DNA of 64,000 bases from Beijerinckia indica subsp. indica ATCC 9039. GTDB lineage: Bacteria > Pseudomonadota > Alphaproteobacteria > Rhizobiales > Beijerinckiaceae. The position numbers were made by a program, and so were the translations under genes. Each line of letters starts with the position of its first letter. Positions within the stretch are counted from its first letter, which is position 1. Where the stretch lies: contig NC_010581.1 of assembly GCF_000019845.1 (NCBI RefSeq), positions 811,501 through 875,500 on the forward strand. The letters run 5' to 3'. The notes below the pieces were generated by a model. The model did no database searches and had not been told where the DNA came from. It saw nothing but the letters and a program-made list of their open reading frames with translations. Shown here one piece after another: positions 10,970 to 53,928 of this stretch.

Positions 10970-11032
10970 TCCAGAGCACGCGGCATTGACAAGCTGACCG
11001 GCCTCGATCAAAACTCCGCGCGTCAGACCAAA

Positions 11033-11154
11033 TCCCTAGCGGGAGAGTCCGTTTTCCAAGACAGGTTGGAAGCTTCCGACCGGTTTCGCTGAAAACGGCG
11101 CCGAAGGCGCAACCGCCCCGGAAACGCTCAGGCCCACGGACCGCTAGGGGATGA
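11033..11154 (+). promoter_or_regulatory. glycine riboswitch, aptamer 1
   Basis: Conserved glycine-aptamer segments are readable in order: CTAGCGGGAGAGTCCG (11036-11051), GCGCCGAAGGCGCAACCG, CCCCGGAAACGCTCAGG, then CGGACCGCTAGGGGATGACA. The end segment ACCGCTAGGG pairs with the start CCCTAGCGG to close P1. It lies about 260-380 nt upstream of gcvT and probably turns on the glycine cleavage operon when glycine is high. Confidence 0.88.
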
Positions 11155-34852: not shown

Positions 34853-34872
34853 AACCTTTTCATGAAAAGGTT
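34853..34872. terminator. 20-bp perfect palindrome at the end of the AT-rich gene
   Basis: AACCTTTTCATGAAAAGGTT, self-complementary, overlaps the stop codon region of the minus-strand gene at 34860. On the minus strand it is followed by TTATTGCTTTTT, so it may act as a terminator for that gene. Confidence 0.55.
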
Positions 34873-35624
34873 TGACGGAAAAGTTCAACCACTTGATTGA
34901 CAGCCTCAGCCATCTTCAAAAGCGTAGGGATTAAAGGCTCGCTTTCGATGACGCCAGCTTCATTGACAACTATGTCCACGGGGGCCGCGATTTCGTAGTC
35001 CAATTCTACTTTACATCCTGGGGAGCCGACTGCCGCCAGGGGGACTTCTTGGCCTACTACTAGAGTGAAACCGCTTGGTGAAGAGATACACGAGCCATCA
35101 CTTGCAGTAACATTGAGCTTCGAAAAGCTGATTTTTCCTAGGGATACAATTAAGAGATTATGTTTGTCTCGATTGTCTAACCGATTGAGTTGCCAGAGCA
35201 ACTCGTTCCCAGCTTTATATGGTGCTATCTTATCAAAAATGAATGTCTCTATTTGTGGTAATGTCCAACGTTTTGAAGCCTCAGAGACAGGAGATACAAG
35301 ATTTTGCCGTTCTTCATGGACAGGGAAAGTTTTCTTCTTTGCAGAATCTCCAAAAACGGATCGCTCTAATCCCATCCAGCAGTAATCTAAGGCACATCTA
35401 AGCGCATGAACAATGTCGCCTGCAAACAATGGGATTTGAGGGGGAATTCCAGGAGAAACACCAGTTTGAATAATGGCAACCCCTTCGTTATTTCGTTCAG
35501 TACGAATCGTGTATGGCTTTGCGTTGATGAACCCGTGGCAGAACCAATTCAGATCATTAATGTGTCTAAAGGCCCATTGGACTTTAAATGATGCATGGGT
35601 GAATGAGTCTTGCGGCTCTGTCAT
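34860..35624 (-). CDS. uncharacterised 254-aa protein
   Basis: No function recognised. The protein is hydrophilic, with ALRCALDYCWMGL and QLNRLDNRDKHNLLIV blocks that recur in a widespread family of hypothetical proteins, the latter after a PYKAGNELLW segment. No signal peptide or membrane helix is seen. Base use is clearly richer in A and T than its neighbours, which suggests recent arrival. It is isolated between nadE (plus strand, convergent) and the TPR gene, with a palindrome at its 3' end. Confidence 0.65.
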   Translation of the reverse strand: MTEPQDSFTHASFKVQWAFRHINDLNWFCHGFINAKPYTIRTERNNEGVAIIQTGVSPGIPPQIPLFAGDIVHALRCALDYCWMGLERSVFGDSAKKKTFPVHEERQNLVSPVSEASKRWTLPQIETFIFDKIAPYKAGNELLWQLNRLDNRDKHNLLIVSLGKISFSKLNVTASDGSCISSPSGFTLVVGQEVPLAAVGSPGCKVELDYEIAAPVDIVVNEAGVIESEPLIPTLLKMAEAVNQVVELFRQTFS

Positions 35625-41382: not shown

Positions 41383-41500
41383 TATACCAACGGTCATGAT
41401 CAATGACCGTTGGACCGCTCTTGAATTTTCGCCATCGCTTTGAAAAAGCGAAAATTCAAGAAAGGAACCAAAGGTCGTTCTTCAAGACCTTTGGTATGAC
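41383..41500. repeat. dispersed repeat copy B, upstream of the SIMPLE-domain gene
   Basis: Has outer ATACCAACGGTCAT / TTTGGTATGACT arms and an inner perfect 13-bp hairpin (41420-41432 with 41448-41460). It matches copy A at 4.0-4.14 kb over its whole length and copy C at 27.1 kb over the inner part. It sits 23 nt before a start codon, so it could affect transcription or translation of the gene below. Confidence 0.7.
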
Positions 41501-41522
41501 TCACAATGACAGGGTGTGCTCC

Positions 41523-42299
41523 ATGATCGAAAAAAGCGCGTTGAGCCTTTCCTTTGTTCTGACGATTTTCTCATGCCTCACCTTTGGATCGGCAGCAGGT
41601 GTTCGGGCGCAGGGGCTTTCGGTTCCCTTGCGGGACTCGGTGCCGGCGATCACCGTCACAGGCCAGGCGAGCACGGAGATTGTCCCCGATACGGCCCTGA
41701 TTTCGCTCGGTGTGGAAACCGAAATGCCAAGGGCTTCGGATGCGTCCGCGGAAAACGCCCGCTCCGTGCAAACGCTCATCGACACGTTGAGGGGGCAAGG
41801 CGTCGAGTCTAAGGATATCAGGACATTACAAGTTAGTCTCGTACCGGTCTATGAGGACAGCCACGATCCGGCGGGAGAGCTGAAAAAACGTGTCTTGCGA
41901 GGCTACAGGGCGCGTAATGAATTCGTCCTGCGCGTCTCGCCTCTCGCTCTAGCGGGCCAGCTCGCGGGAAGCCTCTTCGACAAGGGGCTCAATGTCATCG
42001 ATGGAATTGATTTCCAACTGGCCGACAAGAGCAAGGTTTTGGACAAGTTGCGCGGGGAGGCGGCAAGCGATGCCTTGGCCCAGGCGAAAAGCTTTGCCGC
42101 GCCGCTCGGCTTGCAGCCCGGCCGGGTGTTGGTGATTCAGCCGCAAGGGCCAGTCGGCTTTCCCATTCCCATGGTCCGGGCGCAAAAGGCGGTTTTCGCT
42201 CAGGCCGATCATCCGCCCGTGCTGCCCGTCGAACCTGGTACGCAGAAAGTGCAGGTGGAAACGCAGGTGACCTTCGAACTCACGCCCGCGAAACCTTGA
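41523..42299 (+). CDS. SIMPLE/DUF541 domain protein, periplasmic
   Basis: A 258-aa exported protein from the ATG at 41523 with a signal peptide (ALSLSFVLTIFSCLTFGSAAG, cleavage near VRAQG) followed by the DUF541/SIMPLE fold: PAITVTGQASTEIVPDTALISLGVETE, then DIRTLQVSLVPVY and DGIDFQLADKSKV. Such proteins are periplasmic and linked to oxidative stress (E. coli YggE) in other bacteria. The open frame extends to 41403 but runs through the repeat B element, so it is not used. Confidence 0.85.
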   Translation: MIEKSALSLSFVLTIFSCLTFGSAAGVRAQGLSVPLRDSVPAITVTGQASTEIVPDTALISLGVETEMPRASDASAENARSVQTLIDTLRGQGVESKDIRTLQVSLVPVYEDSHDPAGELKKRVLRGYRARNEFVLRVSPLALAGQLAGSLFDKGLNVIDGIDFQLADKSKVLDKLRGEAASDALAQAKSFAAPLGLQPGRVLVIQPQGPVGFPIPMVRAQKAVFAQADHPPVLPVEPGTQKVQVETQVTFELTPAKP

Positions 42300-42306
42300 G
42301 TAGCTT

Positions 42307-42363
42307 CTAGAGCATCAAATCAGACAAGGGGGTACCACTTTTTGGATGAATTTGATGCGTTTG
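42307..42363. repeat. dispersed repeat family 2, copy at 42.3 kb
   Basis: AGAGCATCAAATCAGA ... TTTGATGCGTTT, an imperfect palindrome with CAAGGGGGTACCAC and TTTTTGG in the middle. The copy at 32892-32948 shares ATCAGAC, a GGGGG/CCCCC block and TGATGCGTTT. Similar GAGCATC elements are scattered in Hyphomicrobiales genomes. Confidence 0.5.
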
Positions 42364-42550
42364 GAAGGATTTATGGCGTCGTTCCTAACGAGCGATGCCA
42401 TCGAACACTTCCCGTGAAAATGCTCACAATATCTTTATTTTAACGCATAATCCGTGTCTAGAAAGTTTCCAACTTTCGAGGTTTGCCGGCTGCCAAATTA
42501 TAATGCGACCAACTCACCAGTCGTCAAATTTGGCAGATCGTCGCGGGGGG

Positions 42551-42970
42551 TTATTGAAGGAACGCGCGGAGTTTGTTAGTTAACGCCTCGCGGTTCTCAA
42601 TCTCGCACTCCCACACGACCAGCGCCAACCAGCCAATATTTTCCATGGCTGAGAGTACTGCTATGTCCCGGGCTCGGTTTCTTGCCAATTTGGGCATCCA
42701 GTATTCTATTCTAGAATGTGGTATGTGCGCCTTCCGGCAGCCCTCGTGCTGATGCCAAAAGCAGCCATGCACGAAAACTGCCTTCCTCTTCACCGGAAAA
42801 ACGATGTCCGGCTTTCCCGGAAGATCGCGGCGGTGTAGCTGATATCTATATCCTAAAGACCAGAGCAAGGACCGAACTGCGACTTCAGGGCGCGTTCCTT
42901 TTGATTTGTTGGATCGCATCGAAGCGCGGACACTTTCCGGTACGTCATCCCATCGCGAACGCATTTTCAC
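42551..42970 (-). CDS. vsr: very short patch repair endonuclease
   Basis: A 139-aa Vsr-type nicking endonuclease that cuts next to T in T:G mismatches arising from deaminated 5-methylcytosine. The family pattern is complete: SNKSKGTRPEVAVRSLLWSLGYRYQLHRRDLPGKPDIVFP, the zinc-site HGCFWHQHEGCRKAHIPHSR, and the end WALVVWECE-type block (here WLALVVWECEIENRE). A Vsr gene beside a C5 methyltransferase is the usual pairing. The start may be GTG at 42970 or ATG at 42964. AT-rich island gene. Confidence 0.94.
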   Translation of the reverse strand: MKMRSRWDDVPESVRASMRSNKSKGTRPEVAVRSLLWSLGYRYQLHRRDLPGKPDIVFPVKRKAVFVHGCFWHQHEGCRKAHIPHSRIEYWMPKLARNRARDIAVLSAMENIGWLALVVWECEIENREALTNKLRAFLQ

Positions 42971-43303
42971 AAAATGTCGAGCATCGTGTCAGTCACCGCC
43001 TTAAATAACGATGGCCGGACAAAGTTGATTTGGCGGTGCGCACGATCGAACTCGCGGTGGAGGTAGCTAAAGTAGCGCACACCGACGCTCTCGCCACGTG
43101 CCATGAACAATAAAACCGCCGTCGGCATCTCTGTTCCAAATCCGATCTAGTAAGAGTGCTCCAAACCTAAGGAACCGCGAAGCAAATCTCATCTTACTTC
43201 CTCAATAGGCATGAGTAAGGCGCCGGCGTAGCAGCCGAGAAATGCCACTTTGATTGATGTGACCTCATTCGAAGCTCGTCTGCAAGAGGGATGACCCACC
43301 AGC
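42971..43303 (-). pseudogene. spacer with short open segments, possibly a decayed gene or a 53-aa gene
   Basis: This 333-nt gap in the island operon holds several short open segments on the minus strand in different frames. One begins with ATG overlapping the upstream stop (MSWWVIPLADELRMR...), one reads NEVTSIKVAFLGCYAGALL, one reads MRFASRFLRFGALLLDRIW, and the last is an uninterrupted 53-codon frame (MPTAVLLFMARGESVGVRYF..., about 43127-42966) whose stop overlaps the vsr start. The pieces together look like one protein broken by frameshifts, or only the last is a real small gene. Confidence 0.35.
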
Positions 43304-44257
43304 TCATCCGATTCCCAGTTTGCGACCTAAATGGCCGACGATGGCATGTCGCCGTGGATTCGGTTCTATGATAAAATGAATTCGACCTTCGCCAGGTGCG
43401 AAATCAACATGATCACTGAATGTCCTCGGTGACCCGTTTTCATCATTGAATGAGACAAGATGCAATCTACTTCGGCTTTCTGGGCGTACGTTGAATGGGA
43501 AAATTGGATGGTCTGATTTTTCCTGGCTCCACAGTGCAATAGCTTGATCGATGCCCGCCAGTTTTGTCCAAATCGACAAAAGTGCCGGATCTCCTTCTAG
43601 GATCCCCTCGATTTGTGGCCGTGTCCGCGGGATGAAGCGGAGATTTGGAAGCAATTCGCTCCGCGACGCCCAAAGTTCGCGACCGTTTTGGAAGGTAGGC
43701 TTGCCAACTGACCGAAGGGCGACCTCGTGTTCGTTAATGTGGTCTGGGCTACAAGCGTTTCTGGCCTCAACAGAAGAAATTTCCAGATTACCGTTTGCGT
43801 CGAGTTGAAGCCGTCTCAGTGAAATCGATATCTTATGCCAAAAAACATGTGAAGGAAAACTTATTGTGAGGCCGTCAAATAGATGAGCTAGTCCTAGCGC
43901 TTCTGCAGGTTCAGCCGCTCTGACCGGAGCGTCTGCCAATAACCTGTATTCGAATTCTGAACCGTCTATATGCTTTAATATGGCTAACGCCTGTCGCAGC
44001 GGCGCACGGTTTTGCAAAGCCTTCAGAAACAGACTTTCCTCAACGCATTCACCGCGATTACGGATGGAAGCAATCGAGCAAGCTGTGCCCAAGGACAAGG
44101 AATGAACGGGCGTTTCGCTGTTCAACGTAAGTCCAGGGTCGATACGAAACGCAGCGCGCGTCGTAGCAACTATCGCTTTGAGGTAGTTCGTTGCGACCTC
44201 GTACGGTAGCGCCTTATTTGGCGACGACAGTTCATTAAGAAAAAGCTCTAGAGACAT
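43304..44257 (-). CDS. unrecognised 317-aa protein of the restriction/defence operon
   Basis: No family recognised. The protein is soluble, with no signal peptide or membrane helix; an LGLAHLFDGLTISFPSHVF segment near the middle, SPDHINEHEVALRSVG after it, and EGRIHFIIEPNPRRHAIVGHLGRKLG at the C terminus are the most distinctive parts. It begins 7 nt after the DUF3696 ATPase stop, so it is probably co-expressed with it. It could be the effector or a toxin-like partner of the ATPase, but this is inference from context only. AT-rich like the rest of the island. Confidence 0.7.
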   Translation of the reverse strand: MSLELFLNELSSPNKALPYEVATNYLKAIVATTRAAFRIDPGLTLNSETPVHSLSLGTACSIASIRNRGECVEESLFLKALQNRAPLRQALAILKHIDGSEFEYRLLADAPVRAAEPAEALGLAHLFDGLTISFPSHVFWHKISISLRRLQLDANGNLEISSVEARNACSPDHINEHEVALRSVGKPTFQNGRELWASRSELLPNLRFIPRTRPQIEGILEGDPALLSIWTKLAGIDQAIALWSQEKSDHPIFPFNVRPESRSRLHLVSFNDENGSPRTFSDHVDFAPGEGRIHFIIEPNPRRHAIVGHLGRKLGIG

Positions 44258-44264
44258 TTAGAAG

Positions 44265-45380
44265 TTACCCGAGCAAGCTATCAAGGCTTTTTTCCCACTG
44301 ATCGAAAAATCCGGATGGCCAATACGACAAGCGACCACCTTCACCAACCACGGGCGTCTCGTAGCTACTTGCCTTACCAGGTAAGCGAGAGAAAAAATGA
44401 AATTGTGCTTCCGACGATGCTAATTGCTTGTCCTTCACAGCGAGCCGAATGCCGTTAAGAACGTGATCGCTATGACTTTCTACGATGACCTGAACGCCGC
44501 CTGCCGCCGTTAACGCCAGTAGTCGCCCGATCGCCACCTGCCCACGAGGATGGAGTTGAGCTTCTGGATTTTCAACAATAAGCAACGAGCCAGGAGAAGC
44601 TGCGAGACACGCTACTATAACAGGGAGTGCATGCGTCAGCCCGAATCCGACATTCGTCGGACGCAACGGCTCTCCGTATGCAACTCCTTCCCCCTTATAT
44701 GAGAATACAAGTCGAATAAAGTCCGTCATTGGCACTGGAACTGCCTCTACACGTACACCTGGACTGAACTCCTGCATCCATGCGTTTACCTGGGCGCCAA
44801 GACTGGCTACTTCCGGCTCACCCGGCCAACGTAGCAATTTCGCAGTGCTGATCTCCTCTCCAAATTCCAAGAGAAAATGTGCTGTATATTCGCCTCGTGC
44901 ACCAAGAAAACGCTGTTGACGTACGGCGTGTTGCGATTTCGGGAACGTCGTTGATGGCGTGATTCGATCGGCTCGAAGGAGCTGAAATCCCGGCCTAAAT
45001 AGATCAAAATCTGCCAAAGCATGGTCGTCCGGCTTTTCGTTGCAGGTTAGAACGTCGCCATCTGTCGGAACTTCCGCCGCCCAAGATAAAATAGCTTCCT
45101 CGGTCCCTCGACGGGTGCCCAACACAATTCTGATCTGCGGGATGTCGAAACCGTGATAAAGAACATCGCGACCAGTTCCGATCTCCACGAGCTCGCCGTT
45201 CAGAGCGAGGGCGCCAGACGTAAGAAATCTTGCGTCAAAAGACTGGCGCAAAAGACCGAGAGCTTGAATAACGGTGCTCTTGCCACTGCCGTTTAGACCT
45301 GCAAGCAATGTTAACGAACCAAGATTTAGCTCTGTTTCGTCGAATGTCTTAAAATTTCGCAGTTCAATAAACTCAATCAT
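44265..45380 (-). CDS. DUF3696 AAA ATPase (SMC-like, OLD/AAA-15 type)
   Basis: A 371-aa ABC/SMC-like ATPase with Walker A GLNGSGKST near residue 29, a Walker B LLIVENPEAQLHPRGQ in the C-terminal third, and an H-loop VIVESHSDHVLNGIRLA. The C terminus LSYWPSGFFDQWEKSL is the mark of DUF3696. There is no TOPRIM nuclease domain, so it is probably a sensor or motor rather than the nuclease. It overlaps the end of the DUF262 gene by 8 nt and is followed 7 nt later by the unknown gene. Confidence 0.9.
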   Translation of the reverse strand: MIEFIELRNFKTFDETELNLGSLTLLAGLNGSGKSTVIQALGLLRQSFDARFLTSGALALNGELVEIGTGRDVLYHGFDIPQIRIVLGTRRGTEEAILSWAAEVPTDGDVLTCNEKPDDHALADFDLFRPGFQLLRADRITPSTTFPKSQHAVRQQRFLGARGEYTAHFLLEFGEEISTAKLLRWPGEPEVASLGAQVNAWMQEFSPGVRVEAVPVPMTDFIRLVFSYKGEGVAYGEPLRPTNVGFGLTHALPVIVACLAASPGSLLIVENPEAQLHPRGQVAIGRLLALTAAGGVQVIVESHSDHVLNGIRLAVKDKQLASSEAQFHFFSRLPGKASSYETPVVGEGGRLSYWPSGFFDQWEKSLDSLLG

Positions 45381-47226
45381 CGCGCAACGCCGTTGTGATC
45401 ATTTCCGAAACCCTTGTAAATCGTCGCTTTACTTTCCGTACATCGCCGGTACCTTGCGAAATCGAGGATTCGAACGCACGATCATTGCAAAGCCGAATAA
45501 TGCCCTCATGCAGCCTTTCTTTCCGTTCGATTAAACGAACTACTTGCGATTGATCGAGATTTGCCAGGTTCACAGACACCGCTTCGAATAATGCTTTGTT
45601 GATCGGCAGGCGGCTATTTTCCGGACCAAACCTTTTTCGGAAGGCATCATTCCCAAACACAGCATACGCTGTGTTCAGCGCTCTGTAGAATGCGGATTGG
45701 GTCTCCACTATTTGTTCCTCTGAAAAACCGTTGATCGCCTTCATAGCATTGACGAGAAACCCGTCCATATCCGGTTGCCTGTATGCAGGTAGGCCGAGCG
45801 AATAGAACGCAATAAAGCGCAATACGAGTTCACGATCATCCATTCTGATCGGCTGGACGCTTCCGTCCGTTGCACGCTTAAAAACGTCGGACTTCGCCCA
45901 GTCTTGGAGAACAATCCTCGCTCGGCCCGGGGTGATCGCGTGACGAAGCTCCTGCGGCGATAGCGGAACTCCGCCAGTGTTGATACGCGCGAAAATATTA
46001 TATTTGACCTCAGGTGGGGTGCCTTTTCTGATCAAATGGATCACTAACTCCGTTTCGCGTAGGCGCATTTGCATACGCTGACTTAGATCCATGAATTTCT
46101 TTCCATCATACGATTTCAGATACTCGAGATTAGACAGTTCAAGTGGCTCGCTTTGGATGACCGTCGGCCTTATGAATCGGGCAATCGCAGACAACCTCTG
46201 AATTCCATCAACGATTTCCCATCGCTCGTCGTCGTCTTCCGCTGCGTAAAGGACAGGTAACGGAATTCGTAAGAGCAAGGACTCAATCAAACGGCTTTGC
46301 CGTCGATTGTCCCATATACCCCATCGGCGTTGAAAATCTGGCTGGAGATCGATCATCTGAGATTCTGTGCGCGACAGAAGAAGATCGACTGTCATTGAGC
46401 GTGTGATGACGTCAATATTTTCTGGATCAAATGGTTCTGCGATCTTCTCAAGATCGTCATCCTCAGAAACAGAGCGTTCGGATTCAACACCAGTGTCGAC
46501 TTGTGTAATATCAATTCGCCCGACAGGCGCTCGGTCCGTTGGCTCCAAAGCAGAAATCCGTGCGGCAGCCGTTTCAATAGGCTCAGGCGGCACTTCCTTC
46601 GCGGAGATCCGGGCCTTTAACGTCTCTACTATTTCCTGGATTCTGTCTGTGGCACTTGCCGTTTCATCTTTGAATCGAAGAAGGTGCTCACGTACCTCAC
46701 CAAATGTCGGATGATTCTCAGACAGAGGGGTCCACCATACATCAGGCTTCTCTAACGTCGCATACATAGAGATCGTCACATTCCCGAAATGAGGTGAAAG
46801 TGTGAAAGTCGCTGTCCTAGATGGTAGTCTCGGTTCTATTTTCGATTTCTTTGTAAAGGCTCCAAATAGTTTTGCTGCTGACACTGCCATTATCTGATTG
46901 CCGACATAATCAAAAACTAGCAAAAACGGATTTTCTTCAAACAGTTTGCCATTGGCAGCTGCAAGCGCTCTACCGAAGGCTTCAGCGCGAGTATTCGATC
47001 TGGTTTGGCCGTTTAAAACTAGCGAATAAGCAACAAAGTTTACTTCTTGATTGTCATCATTCAGTTTAAATCTATATATATGGTTACGAGATTTGATATC
47101 CGAGCCTAAGAGGCTCCCGATAAATCTTGCATCGAGAACTTCAAAATATAATTTATTTTTTGAATCTCTCGCAAGATTCGAAAAATGTTTCTCTAGCGGA
47201 AGGTGTCTGAGCTTTTCATCATCCAT
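45373..47226 (-). CDS. DUF262 (ParB-like) protein with unassigned N-terminal half
   Basis: A 617-aa protein. The DUF262 domain occupies about residues 275-500, with SMTVDLLLSR, QPDFQRRWGIWDNRRQSRLIESLLLRIPLPV, and the ParB/Srx-like catalytic motif VDGIQRLSAI (DGIQR in place of the usual DGQQR). A DUF1524 HNH domain, which would make it GmrSD-like, is not visible. The first about 200 residues match no family I recognise. Its start codon overlaps the methyltransferase stop (TAATG), so the two are co-translated. Probably binds or cleaves DNA. Confidence 0.8.
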   Translation of the reverse strand: MDDEKLRHLPLEKHFSNLARDSKNKLYFEVLDARFIGSLLGSDIKSRNHIYRFKLNDDNQEVNFVAYSLVLNGQTRSNTRAEAFGRALAAANGKLFEENPFLLVFDYVGNQIMAVSAAKLFGAFTKKSKIEPRLPSRTATFTLSPHFGNVTISMYATLEKPDVWWTPLSENHPTFGEVREHLLRFKDETASATDRIQEIVETLKARISAKEVPPEPIETAAARISALEPTDRAPVGRIDITQVDTGVESERSVSEDDDLEKIAEPFDPENIDVITRSMTVDLLLSRTESQMIDLQPDFQRRWGIWDNRRQSRLIESLLLRIPLPVLYAAEDDDERWEIVDGIQRLSAIARFIRPTVIQSEPLELSNLEYLKSYDGKKFMDLSQRMQMRLRETELVIHLIRKGTPPEVKYNIFARINTGGVPLSPQELRHAITPGRARIVLQDWAKSDVFKRATDGSVQPIRMDDRELVLRFIAFYSLGLPAYRQPDMDGFLVNAMKAINGFSEEQIVETQSAFYRALNTAYAVFGNDAFRKRFGPENSRLPINKALFEAVSVNLANLDQSQVVRLIERKERLHEGIIRLCNDRAFESSISQGTGDVRKVKRRFTRVSEMITTALRDD

Positions 47227-48692
47227 TAGGTGTTGGGACCTCTGGCGGAAACAACCTTGTCAAAAATCTTTCGTTCATCGAAGCCATAATATACGTCAAG
47301 AACCCCCTTTACCTGCTTGGCAATTGCTTGCGCCATTAAAGGAGGAACAGCGTTCCCACAAAGCCTGTATTGATCCACTTGACCCCCATAAAAAACGTGC
47401 CTGTCGGGAAATGACTGTATTCGTGCAGCTTCACGAACGGAAATTAGCCTTTGCTGCGCCAAGTCGTAGTGGATGAACGTGCCCCAGTGTGGATCAGGTT
47501 TTGTCAACAAAGTGCCAGCCAGTTGCGTCGGAGAAAGGCGCCCGTAGCGCTTAGTATGATCTTTTCGCAGCGCCCTTTGCATTCCAGGGGGAAGTAGATC
47601 GCGGGGAATCGAGCGCCAGTCTCCACCTGCGGGAATATGCTTTATGCGTTCTGTATTCGGCGGATAAAGGGCTCGGCACCAATGATTGGCTAATAGCTCG
47701 CCATCAGAGCGCATATTCTGCTGGTATTTACTTAGCTGCGGCGCGTCTTTGTTGTAGCCGTAGCGCCCAACATTTTCTCCTCCACCGTTCGTGAGCTTAG
47801 GCAAGTCGCCTATAGCATCTATAACAGTCACAAACGGCTCAAGCTGGGGACCTATGTGTGAAATCTGGTCAGTTGATGGATGCTTTCCACGTCCGATGGC
47901 ATAATGAAACGTATGGGTCCGTCCTCCCTTGAAGTGTGCTTGAGCTAATGAAAAATGGTGCGGAATAGGCAAAGATACGACGCCTGCTCTATCTGCAACA
48001 TCCTTGCGCGTTCCGACTACAACGACACGGAATCTTTCCTGAGGCACACCATAATGTGCGGCGTTCAATATTTTGAATCTCACCTCATATCCAGGACAAT
48101 CCACTGTCGTCGAGAGCGACACTTCTCTCAAAAACTCCTCGAAGAAATGGCCTCCTTCGAGCGACAGCATTCCAGGGACATTCTCAAGCACGAAGATTTT
48201 CGGTGACAGGCCCTTAAGCAATCGTACGTAATGCCGAAACAGGTAATTCCGAGGATCCTGTACAGACCGCACATGTGAATTAAGCGAGAAGCCTTGGCAC
48301 GGTGGTCCTCCGAGCAAAACGTCGATTTCGCCTACCTTCAGGGATCCCTCTCCACTGGAGGAGGAAATTTTCGGCAGAATATCCGATATTGAAATATCCT
48401 CAACCGAACCCACTAGACCCAAGATGTCGCCATGATGTGTCCCGCTTGTTGCGGCGTATGTTGCATCGAAATTCATTAGAAAGTTGTATAGAGCCAATGG
48501 CCAAACGTCATTGGCAAATTTGGGTTCAAAGCCCAGAGAATGGAACCCTCGTGACAAGCCTCCGATTCCACAAAAAACTTCTCCAGCCGTGTAGCGCGGT
48601 TGGATTTCAATTGATTTTCGCTGCACGCTCGCTGTCCAGGCTTTGTGAATTCTACCTCTGATTCGCCACTTCAAGAATATATCCGCTGGCAT
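47226..48692 (-). CDS. DNA (cytosine-5) methyltransferase
   Basis: Methylates the C5 position of cytosine within a specific DNA site (site unknown). The 488-aa protein has the m5C motifs in order: I, GEVFCGIGGLSRGFHSLGF; IV, GGPPCQGFS with the catalytic Cys; VI, VLENVPGM; VIII, QERFRVVVVG; and X, YRLCGNAVPPLMAQAI. A target-recognition domain lies between VIII and IX. The translation start is uncertain (ATG 48692 or a GTG about 23 codons later). Head of a four-gene operon; the partner Vsr repairs deaminated product. Confidence 0.93.
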   Translation of the reverse strand: MPADIFLKWRIRGRIHKAWTASVQRKSIEIQPRYTAGEVFCGIGGLSRGFHSLGFEPKFANDVWPLALYNFLMNFDATYAATSGTHHGDILGLVGSVEDISISDILPKISSSSGEGSLKVGEIDVLLGGPPCQGFSLNSHVRSVQDPRNYLFRHYVRLLKGLSPKIFVLENVPGMLSLEGGHFFEEFLREVSLSTTVDCPGYEVRFKILNAAHYGVPQERFRVVVVGTRKDVADRAGVVSLPIPHHFSLAQAHFKGGRTHTFHYAIGRGKHPSTDQISHIGPQLEPFVTVIDAIGDLPKLTNGGGENVGRYGYNKDAPQLSKYQQNMRSDGELLANHWCRALYPPNTERIKHIPAGGDWRSIPRDLLPPGMQRALRKDHTKRYGRLSPTQLAGTLLTKPDPHWGTFIHYDLAQQRLISVREAARIQSFPDRHVFYGGQVDQYRLCGNAVPPLMAQAIAKQVKGVLDVYYGFDERKIFDKVVSARGPNT

Positions 48693-49073
48693 CGATGCGG
48701 AAGCGCTGCAGGCTTAGAGGCAGCCGTTCACCGGCGGGATTTCGGCCGTTCGCAGAGGAATGGTTCTCAGTTGCACGCTTCGGCGGCTAATACGCTGAAG
48801 CGTGTGATCGTTCTTCATAATCCCATTCTGAGGAAAGCCAAGTGCTGCTTCGCGCCGCGAAGCGAGAGTATGTCGCGGGCCGGCTGCGGACTGAAGGTGC
48901 ATGATGTCTTTGGTAAAGCGATCCGATCAATTTGATAGCATAACCTGATAGAAGGATCGATGCTTACACTCCTTCGGTGGCCTTCCCATTGGGGTTAGCA
49001 ATAGTCGAGCCGTCAAGTGGCGCCTAGAAAGACCGCCATAAGATTTTGGCAGGGCTGAGGATGCAATATATAA

Positions 49074-49101
49074 AAATGTCACCTGTGATCTGGTGACATT
49101 T
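49074..49101. repeat. perfect 10-bp inverted repeat with GTGAC half-sites
   Basis: AAATGTCACC, an 8-nt loop, and GGTGACATTT; followed by more GTGAC words (CACGGTGACC and GAGTGACATTA) up to 49131. The cluster resembles operator half-sites but could be chance or a decayed element end. Confidence 0.45.
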
Positions 49102-49160
49102 CACGGTGACCATTCGTCTGCCAGAGTGACATTATATTTGTCAGCCGACAATTATGCTCG

Positions 49161-49190
49161 AAAAGACAAGGGCCGCATATGCGGCCCTTG
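49161..49190 (-). terminator. Rho-independent terminator of the CoA-transferase gene
   Basis: A perfect 24-bp palindrome (49167-49190) read on the minus strand as a GC-rich hairpin followed by TCTTTT. It lies 42 nt after the stop codon of the CoA-transferase gene. Confidence 0.85.
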
Positions 49191-49231
49191 CGATTCCTTC
49201 CGATCGAAACCGGTGATGGCTGACGCGTGCC

Positions 49232-53482: not shown

Positions 53483-53511
53483 TTGAGCGATGCCTTCCCG
53501 GCCTTTTTAAA
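53483..53511 (+). promoter_or_regulatory. putative sigma-70-type promoter of ssrA
   Basis: TTGAGC at 53483-53488 as a -35 box and TTTAAA at 53506-53511 as a -10 box, with a 17-nt spacer, just upstream of the permuted tmRNA acceptor piece. Confidence 0.45.
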
Positions 53512-53529
53512 TTGGGCGAGACGCTTTAT

Positions 53530-53865
53530 ATAGAACCTGCCGCTCTGCGGCTATGGCGATAAACGGCTTCGAAATAAGCTCTTCGGACCCGGGGGCGGTA
53601 CCCGGCGCCTCCACCAAAGCCCAAAGGCTCGATTTGGCCATTGGTTTTTGGCGGGGGCGAAATAGGTTCGACGGGGGGTGTAAAGGATGACCTTTCGCTC
53701 GGCATGGTTCCGCCGTCATCGGGCCGATTTTATAGTTGCCAACGACAACTATGCTCCGGTGGCCGTTGCCGCGTAATGCGGTAATAGTACCGATTCAAAG
53801 CCCTTGTGGGTAGCACTTCAAGGCGGGGTTCGGAGGCACCTGGCAACAGAAGCCTCCACTTCAAG
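53530..53865 (+). ncRNA. ssrA: circularly permuted (two-piece) tmRNA
   Basis: The acceptor piece comes first and ends in CGCCTCCACCA (53606-53616), with a T-stem at 53589-53605 and an unusual 7-nt T-loop. After a spacer, the coding piece starts at about 53653 with GGGGGCGAAATAGGTTCGAC, whose GGGGGCG pairs with the acceptor CGCCTCC. The tag frame reads ANDNYAPVAVAA-stop at 53738-53776. The piece ends in a hairpin near 53832-53857. This order is the alphaproteobacterial two-piece tmRNA, which frees stalled ribosomes and tags their products. Outer ends are approximate. Confidence 0.93.
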
Positions 53866-53928
53866 ATAACGCATCTTGATTTCGCCTTCTGTTCCCCGCG
53901 CGCGGCCTCGCCGCTGATTGGACTGTCG

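Follow-up and report, generated by a model that had tools for sequence, protein, structure and literature searches.

The 64,000-nt stretch of the Beijerinckia indica subsp. indica ATCC 9039 genome analyzed here (hereafter the window; coordinates are positions in it) carries five minus-strand open reading frames (ORFs) at 42551..48692. With slightly better than even confidence, we read them as the anti-phage system Menshen provided with its own self-marking, whereby the methylation would mark self, NsnA would read unmethylated sites and NsnC would act as the effector. A broader reading, which we hold only tentatively, is that the N-terminus of NsnA serves as a socket for unrelated DNA-reading domains, each arriving with its own methyltransferase and wiring one abortive Menshen effector to restriction-style self/non-self recognition. 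The domain in this island would then be a dead restriction enzyme traded with McrBC-type systems, allowing the same reader and methyltransferase to drive either DNA cutting (McrBC-like) or RNase-based cell shutdown (Menshen).

The 617-, 371- and 317-aa proteins of the island matched the PADLOC models NsnA, NsnB and NsnC, respectively (Table 1), which we take to be the genes of Menshen, and they follow each other in the same order as in that system, at a spacing of -8 and +7 nt. The trio is thus assigned to a known three-gene anti-phage system, with the anti-phage activity in this strain being predicted from sequence. An earlier note, made from the letters of the window alone, had recognized no named system in this combination and had missed both the name of the trio and the extra N-terminal domain of its DUF262 protein; its suggestion that the trio is the effector part is likely correct. 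The NsnA core was about 60-72% identical to the best-listed NsnA relatives of about 387 aa. NsnB matched AAA_21, AAA_15 and DUF3696 in Pfam with no TOPRIM family at E 0.1, and NsnC had no Pfam match at the same threshold. Searching the PDB with the sequences of NsnA and NsnC and with the profile of the N-terminal domain gave nothing useful, and a DNA-pattern search of genome contigs recovered no NsnC relatives. NsnC is perhaps an effector with RelE-like RNase activity. Named systems were checked by Pfam, PADLOC and NCBIfam scans. Among the best 25 of 131 PADLOC families, the matches of the ATPase to HEC-03, AriA, PDC, GajA and mad3 were all weaker than that to NsnB, and the methylation-associated defence system MADS was rejected with a MAD3 ATPase score of 49.4 bits against the NCBIfam cut-off of 420.

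The arrangement is compact. The methyltransferase gene and nsnA overlap by 1 nt, nsnA and nsnB by 8 nt, nsnB and nsnC are separated by 7 nt, exactly as described earlier, and the Vsr gene lies 333 nt beyond nsnC. The AT-richer character of the region was also borne out, with a G+C content of 0.47-0.52 between 43 and 49 kb compared to mostly 0.55-0.61 nearby. The convergent flanking genes (SIMPL-like and CoA-transferase-like, both named by eye) have matches only 126 nt apart in another genome of the same genus (G001), compared to 6.9 kb in the window with the five genes in between. Since the flank matches are nearly contiguous in G001, the five genes make up an island of 6.9 kb that is present in the window and absent in its relative, and their grouping is more than chance. 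One genome does not settle whether the island was gained in the window or lost in G001; its lower G+C content favours a gain. In the neighbouring ORF at 41403-42299, the first 33 residues matched a different G001 contig than the remainder, so that the two genomes may differ in the annotated start or the upstream end of this ORF.

The feature that sets this NsnA apart is its N-terminus. The PADLOC NsnA model (385 aa) covers only residues 238-614 of the protein, leaving about 235 extra N-terminal residues, and the only Pfam domain found at E 0.1 was GmrSD_N at residues 288-430. Of 4058 relatives, the best 120 included three metagenomic proteins (P0001, P0002 and P0090) that cover the whole length of NsnA; their N-extensions were 56%, 45% and 32% identical to that of the window, respectively. 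A search with residues 1-238 recovered five proteins, namely P0001, P0002 and three McrB-like AAA_5 proteins (P0241-P0243; 42-48% identity), but not P0090. In the searches made, the extension was therefore seen elsewhere only in the three metagenomic NsnA and in McrB-like AAA proteins; no free-standing copy was found among the candidates of about 209-665 aa, and the viral contigs, plasmids and phages searched had none.

The structural model of the domain aligned with nucleases such as SwaI, HincII, PvuII and BsaWI. This alignment would suit a Type II restriction-modification enzyme fused to Menshen, in which the N-domain itself cuts DNA at specific sequences as the partner of the methyltransferase and Menshen acts as a second line; a methyltransferase relative that is 45% identical and adjoins a NotI-family enzyme points the same way. 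The residues argue otherwise: in 10 aligned N-domains, E82 and D106 were the only invariant acids, no lysine was conserved in at least 8, and the hairpin, as read by eye, lacks D..(D/E)xK, while a free-standing version of the domain was missing from the candidates mentioned above. We consider such a fusion quite unlikely, and the modelled domain is probably a restriction-enzyme fold without the usual catalytic residues. Apart from this resemblance to a nuclease fold, Vsr was the only nuclease family among the five island proteins and no PD-(D/E)xK family was present in the trio, in keeping with the earlier remark that a standard restriction endonuclease is missing (Pfam).

Other NsnA proteins start differently, with the 563-aa type (P0087), Mrr_N (PF14338) in P0116 and others. 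The N-domain of the 563-aa type also occurs in 'hypothetical' proteins of about 500 aa on rhizobial plasmids (L032-L034). Because different NsnA proteins carry different N-termini, and that of the 563-aa type is also found in other proteins, these termini look exchangeable. P0087 was not found in viral contigs, and the N-domains of the loci L069, L067 and L025 (see below) were not found in plasmids. In the three rhizobial plasmid regions viewed, one copy of the 563-aa-type N-domain was near genes of a cysteine desulfurase and a PAPS-reductase-family protein, one near dndB and one near neither, i.e., Dnd-like genes were close by in two of the three.

Further evidence comes from the partner of this domain outside Menshen. 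Scanning genome contigs with the N-domain profile gave three loci, from a Mesorhizobium metagenome-assembled genome (L013), Ancylobacter defluvii (L014) and Sphingobium sp. Leaf26 (L015). In all three, the reader forms one protein with AAA_5, and a C5 methyltransferase of the same clade lies directly upstream at -4 to +2 nt. The downstream gene (408-414 aa) carries GAD..ECK in every case, which, read by eye, would correspond to a PD-(D/E)xK motif; it had no Pfam or PADLOC match, and the McrC-like protein of L013 weakly hit one unrelated PDB entry (E 0.0042). The island methyltransferase has PPCQG, ENV and QxRxR, presumably the C5 methyltransferase motifs, and is the sole PF00145 match in its own genome. 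It was 63-70% identical to the three methyltransferases of these loci, whereas the best of the other relatives found, in genomes of the class and in plasmids, reached 45-46%; 2 of 385 genomes of the class, including its own, matched it at 1e-80. Hence, with the same methyltransferase clade directly upstream of the same reader in 3/3 McrB-like loci, the pair appears to form a cassette that either effector can use, and the methyltransferase is predicted to be the self-marking enzyme. None of the other loci examined repeated the five-gene order that the earlier note had proposed to look for; the recurring element is the methyltransferase with the N-terminal reader. Association of McrBC-like systems with methyltransferases is known (PMC11090510, in excerpt), with LlaJI as the characterized example (PMC1459862), and what stands out is the link of the cassette to Menshen.

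Vsr probably repairs deaminated 5-methylcytosine. The Vsr of L013 was 43% identical to that of the window, with none detected in L014 or L015, and the best plasmid relative of the methyltransferase (45% identical) adjoins a NotI-family enzyme and a Vsr. As one of the three McrB-like loci and this NotI-family restriction-modification locus have one, Vsr appears to accompany the methyltransferase as an accessory. A different role for the methyltransferase would be mainly the upkeep or spread of the island, with the N-domain being structural or regulatory and unrelated to DNA sequence. The absence of the island from the one same-genus genome checked would agree with that, as would the ability of Vsr-like genes to stabilize cytosine methyltransferase genes (stated in part of PMC12907096), but this reading does not account for the occurrence of the same N-domain in McrB-like proteins next to a methyltransferase of the same clade, and we regard it as very improbable. 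The same 3/3 linkage bears on a Type IV-style alternative, whereby the N-domain would read modified phage DNA and the methyltransferase and Vsr would be an unrelated orphan pair that landed beside Menshen. DNA with modified cytosines is the target of the DUF262 proteins GmrSD and BrxU (an excerpt of PMC10952713), and Alphaproteobacteria are described as commonly carrying solitary cytosine methyltransferases (an excerpt of PMC12907096). However, besides the conserved linkage, the 1-nt overlap of the methyltransferase gene with nsnA argues against a chance neighbour, and a reader of the cell's own 5-methylcytosine mark would attack the host, which makes this alternative rather unlikely.

Whether the coupling holds within Menshen was examined in 39 loci with NsnA adjoining NsnB. 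Apart from the window, 26 of them came from genomes and 12 from plasmids; the set was collected by similarity searches with the window NsnA, the window NsnB or P0087. An N-extension of at least 148 residues was present in four of them (the window, L025, L067 and L069), with the rest having 71 residues or less. All four have a C5 methyltransferase gene (Pfam) directly upstream on the same strand at a distance of -1 to 155 nt, compared to none of the 35 loci without a long extension (p = 1.2e-5, or 1.2e-4 at 3/3 vs 0/35 with the window left out); as the loci are not phylogenetically independent, all p values given are only a guide. The 35 upstream genes were judged partly by Pfam and the others by BLAST, using as queries the methyltransferases, HsdS and HsdM of the present loci, and in most plasmid loci also by the record annotation. 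Counting L063, L070 and L072 as modification-linked still leaves 4/4 vs 3/35 (p = 4e-4). The tie between methyltransferase and trio suggested earlier thus appears real. The readers of L067 and L069 were 37% alike, as were their methyltransferases, and the N-domain of the window had no similarity to that of L067 in a profile comparison. A second reader type (L067, L069) thus goes with a second methyltransferase clade.

An HNH gene is located near L069 and, weakly, near L025, which weakens those two cases. Most Menshen loci examined do without a methyltransferase, only 4 of the 39 (window included) having a C5 methyltransferase directly upstream.

Several single loci showed other arrangements. 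In L063 (6433-10565), an N6/N4 DNA methyltransferase gene (981 aa) precedes nsnA, its stop overlapping the nsnA start, and NsnA has no real N-extension. In L072 (912-15503), the operon is located between hsdS (Pfam) and an hsdR-like gene (by eye) and is preceded by an hsdM-like gene as well as RhuM/Fic and ORF6N genes, i.e., Menshen inside a Type I restriction operon, and in L070 hsdS is directly upstream of nsnA. A Vsr-like gene was found 275 nt upstream of nsnA in L084 (5761-8141), where the sequence retrieved around it showed no C5 methyltransferase. In L074, both Vsr and a C5 methyltransferase are encoded on the opposite strand, some 3.5-4 kb downstream.

Compared with Menshen as found in 35 of the 39 loci, which lack both a long N-extension and an upstream C5 methyltransferase, the window NsnA possesses an N-terminal domain of about 235 residues, and its gene is overlapped by that of a C5 methyltransferase. 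This resembles LlaJI and McrB-like Type II systems, where a C5 methyltransferase adjoins a protein with a presumed specificity-determining N-terminus, a layout held by the closest non-Menshen relatives of the domain (L013-L015). R1.LlaJI is McrB-like, with a unique N-terminal half, and is the sole specificity subunit of a system restricting unmethylated DNA (both from an excerpt of PMC1459862). Unlike LlaJI, the motor and effector here are the Menshen DUF262-DUF3696-NsnC proteins rather than a McrB-like GTPase and a PD-(D/E)xK subunit; no AAA_5 or McrB-like GTPase was found in NsnA (Pfam, E 0.1), whereas AAA_5 is present in L013-L015. A DUF262 domain is shared with the Type IV enzymes GmrSD/BrxU, from which the window differs by the linked methyltransferase. 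With DndI and SspE, NsnA would share both DUF262 and, as proposed, an action set by the host's own DNA mark, although the mark here would be 5-methylcytosine instead of phosphorothioation and the island has no dnd or ssp genes. The C-terminal DUF1524/HNH nuclease domain typical of GmrSD/BrxU, SspE and DndI was not found in NsnA (Pfam).

The mechanism we propose starts with the C5 methyltransferase methylating a sequence in the host DNA. The NsnA N-domain would bind this very sequence in its unmethylated state, for example on phage DNA entering the cell; the binding would alter the NTPase state of DUF262, the ATPase NsnB would relay this change and NsnC would be released as the effector. NsnC, most likely a RelE-like ribonuclease, would stop the infected cell, while Vsr would repair the T:G mismatches left by deamination of 5-methylcytosine. 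A tested parallel is DndI, a DUF262 protein harming cells without the host DNA mark (PMC11662687, in excerpt). The opposite polarity follows the example of SspE, another DUF262 protein, whose activity depends on the host phosphorothioate mark and which does no harm in its absence (same excerpt): methylated host DNA would arm NsnA, defence would be confined to modified cells and loss of the methyltransferase would just switch the system off. By analogy, the other partners of the reader (L013-L015) speak against such licensing, having the layout of LlaJI with its restriction of unmethylated DNA (PMC1459862, in excerpt), and we rate it as unlikely.

The linked methyltransferase makes the Menshen trigger of the proposed self-marking system testable, as the methylated site should be what NsnA reads. 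The results suggest that one defence system can be given the self/non-self discrimination of another. If true, specificity modules (reader plus methyltransferase) are exchangeable between DNA-cutting restriction enzymes and cell-shutdown systems, and this exchange is a route for assembling new self/non-self rules. Menshen itself is already known and its domain polymorphism is reportedly the subject of a 2025 paper, for which reason neither N-domain swaps nor methyltransferase links are claimed as unpublished.

Table 1. Coordinates of the island, its genes and domains, and two RNA features of the window.
Feature	Position	Strand	Evidence
Five-gene island between two convergent flanking genes	42300..49231	.	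empty site in G001
C5 cytosine DNA methyltransferase	47226..48692	-	488 aa; Pfam PF00145 6.8e-54
NsnA, DUF262 protein	45373..47226	-	617 aa; Pfam GmrSD_N PF03235 4.2e-24
NsnA N-terminal putative reader domain	46513..47226	-	residues 1-238; confident model to ~213
NsnA DUF262/GmrSD_N core	45373..46521	-	residues 236-617; PADLOC NsnA 1.6e-140; VDGIQR in translation
NsnB, AAA_21/DUF3696 ATPase	44265..45380	-	371 aa; PADLOC NsnB 4.4e-108; Pfam DUF3696 8.3e-16
NsnC, proposed effector, RelE-like C-terminal part	43304..44257	-	317 aa; PADLOC NsnC 3.8e-77
Vsr mismatch endonuclease	42551..42970	-	139 aa; Pfam Vsr 4.3e-27; TIGR00632 139.1 bits, cut-off 97.85
Glycine riboswitch	11030-11153		Rfam RF00504, 66.9 bits
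Alphaproteobacterial tmRNA gene	53500-53867		tag ANDNYAPVAVAA

Elsewhere in the window, the most AT-rich kilobase (G+C 0.46) contains a 254-aa ORF on the minus strand (34860-35624), located between NAD synthetase-like and TPR protein-like genes (by eye), which is possibly another insertion.
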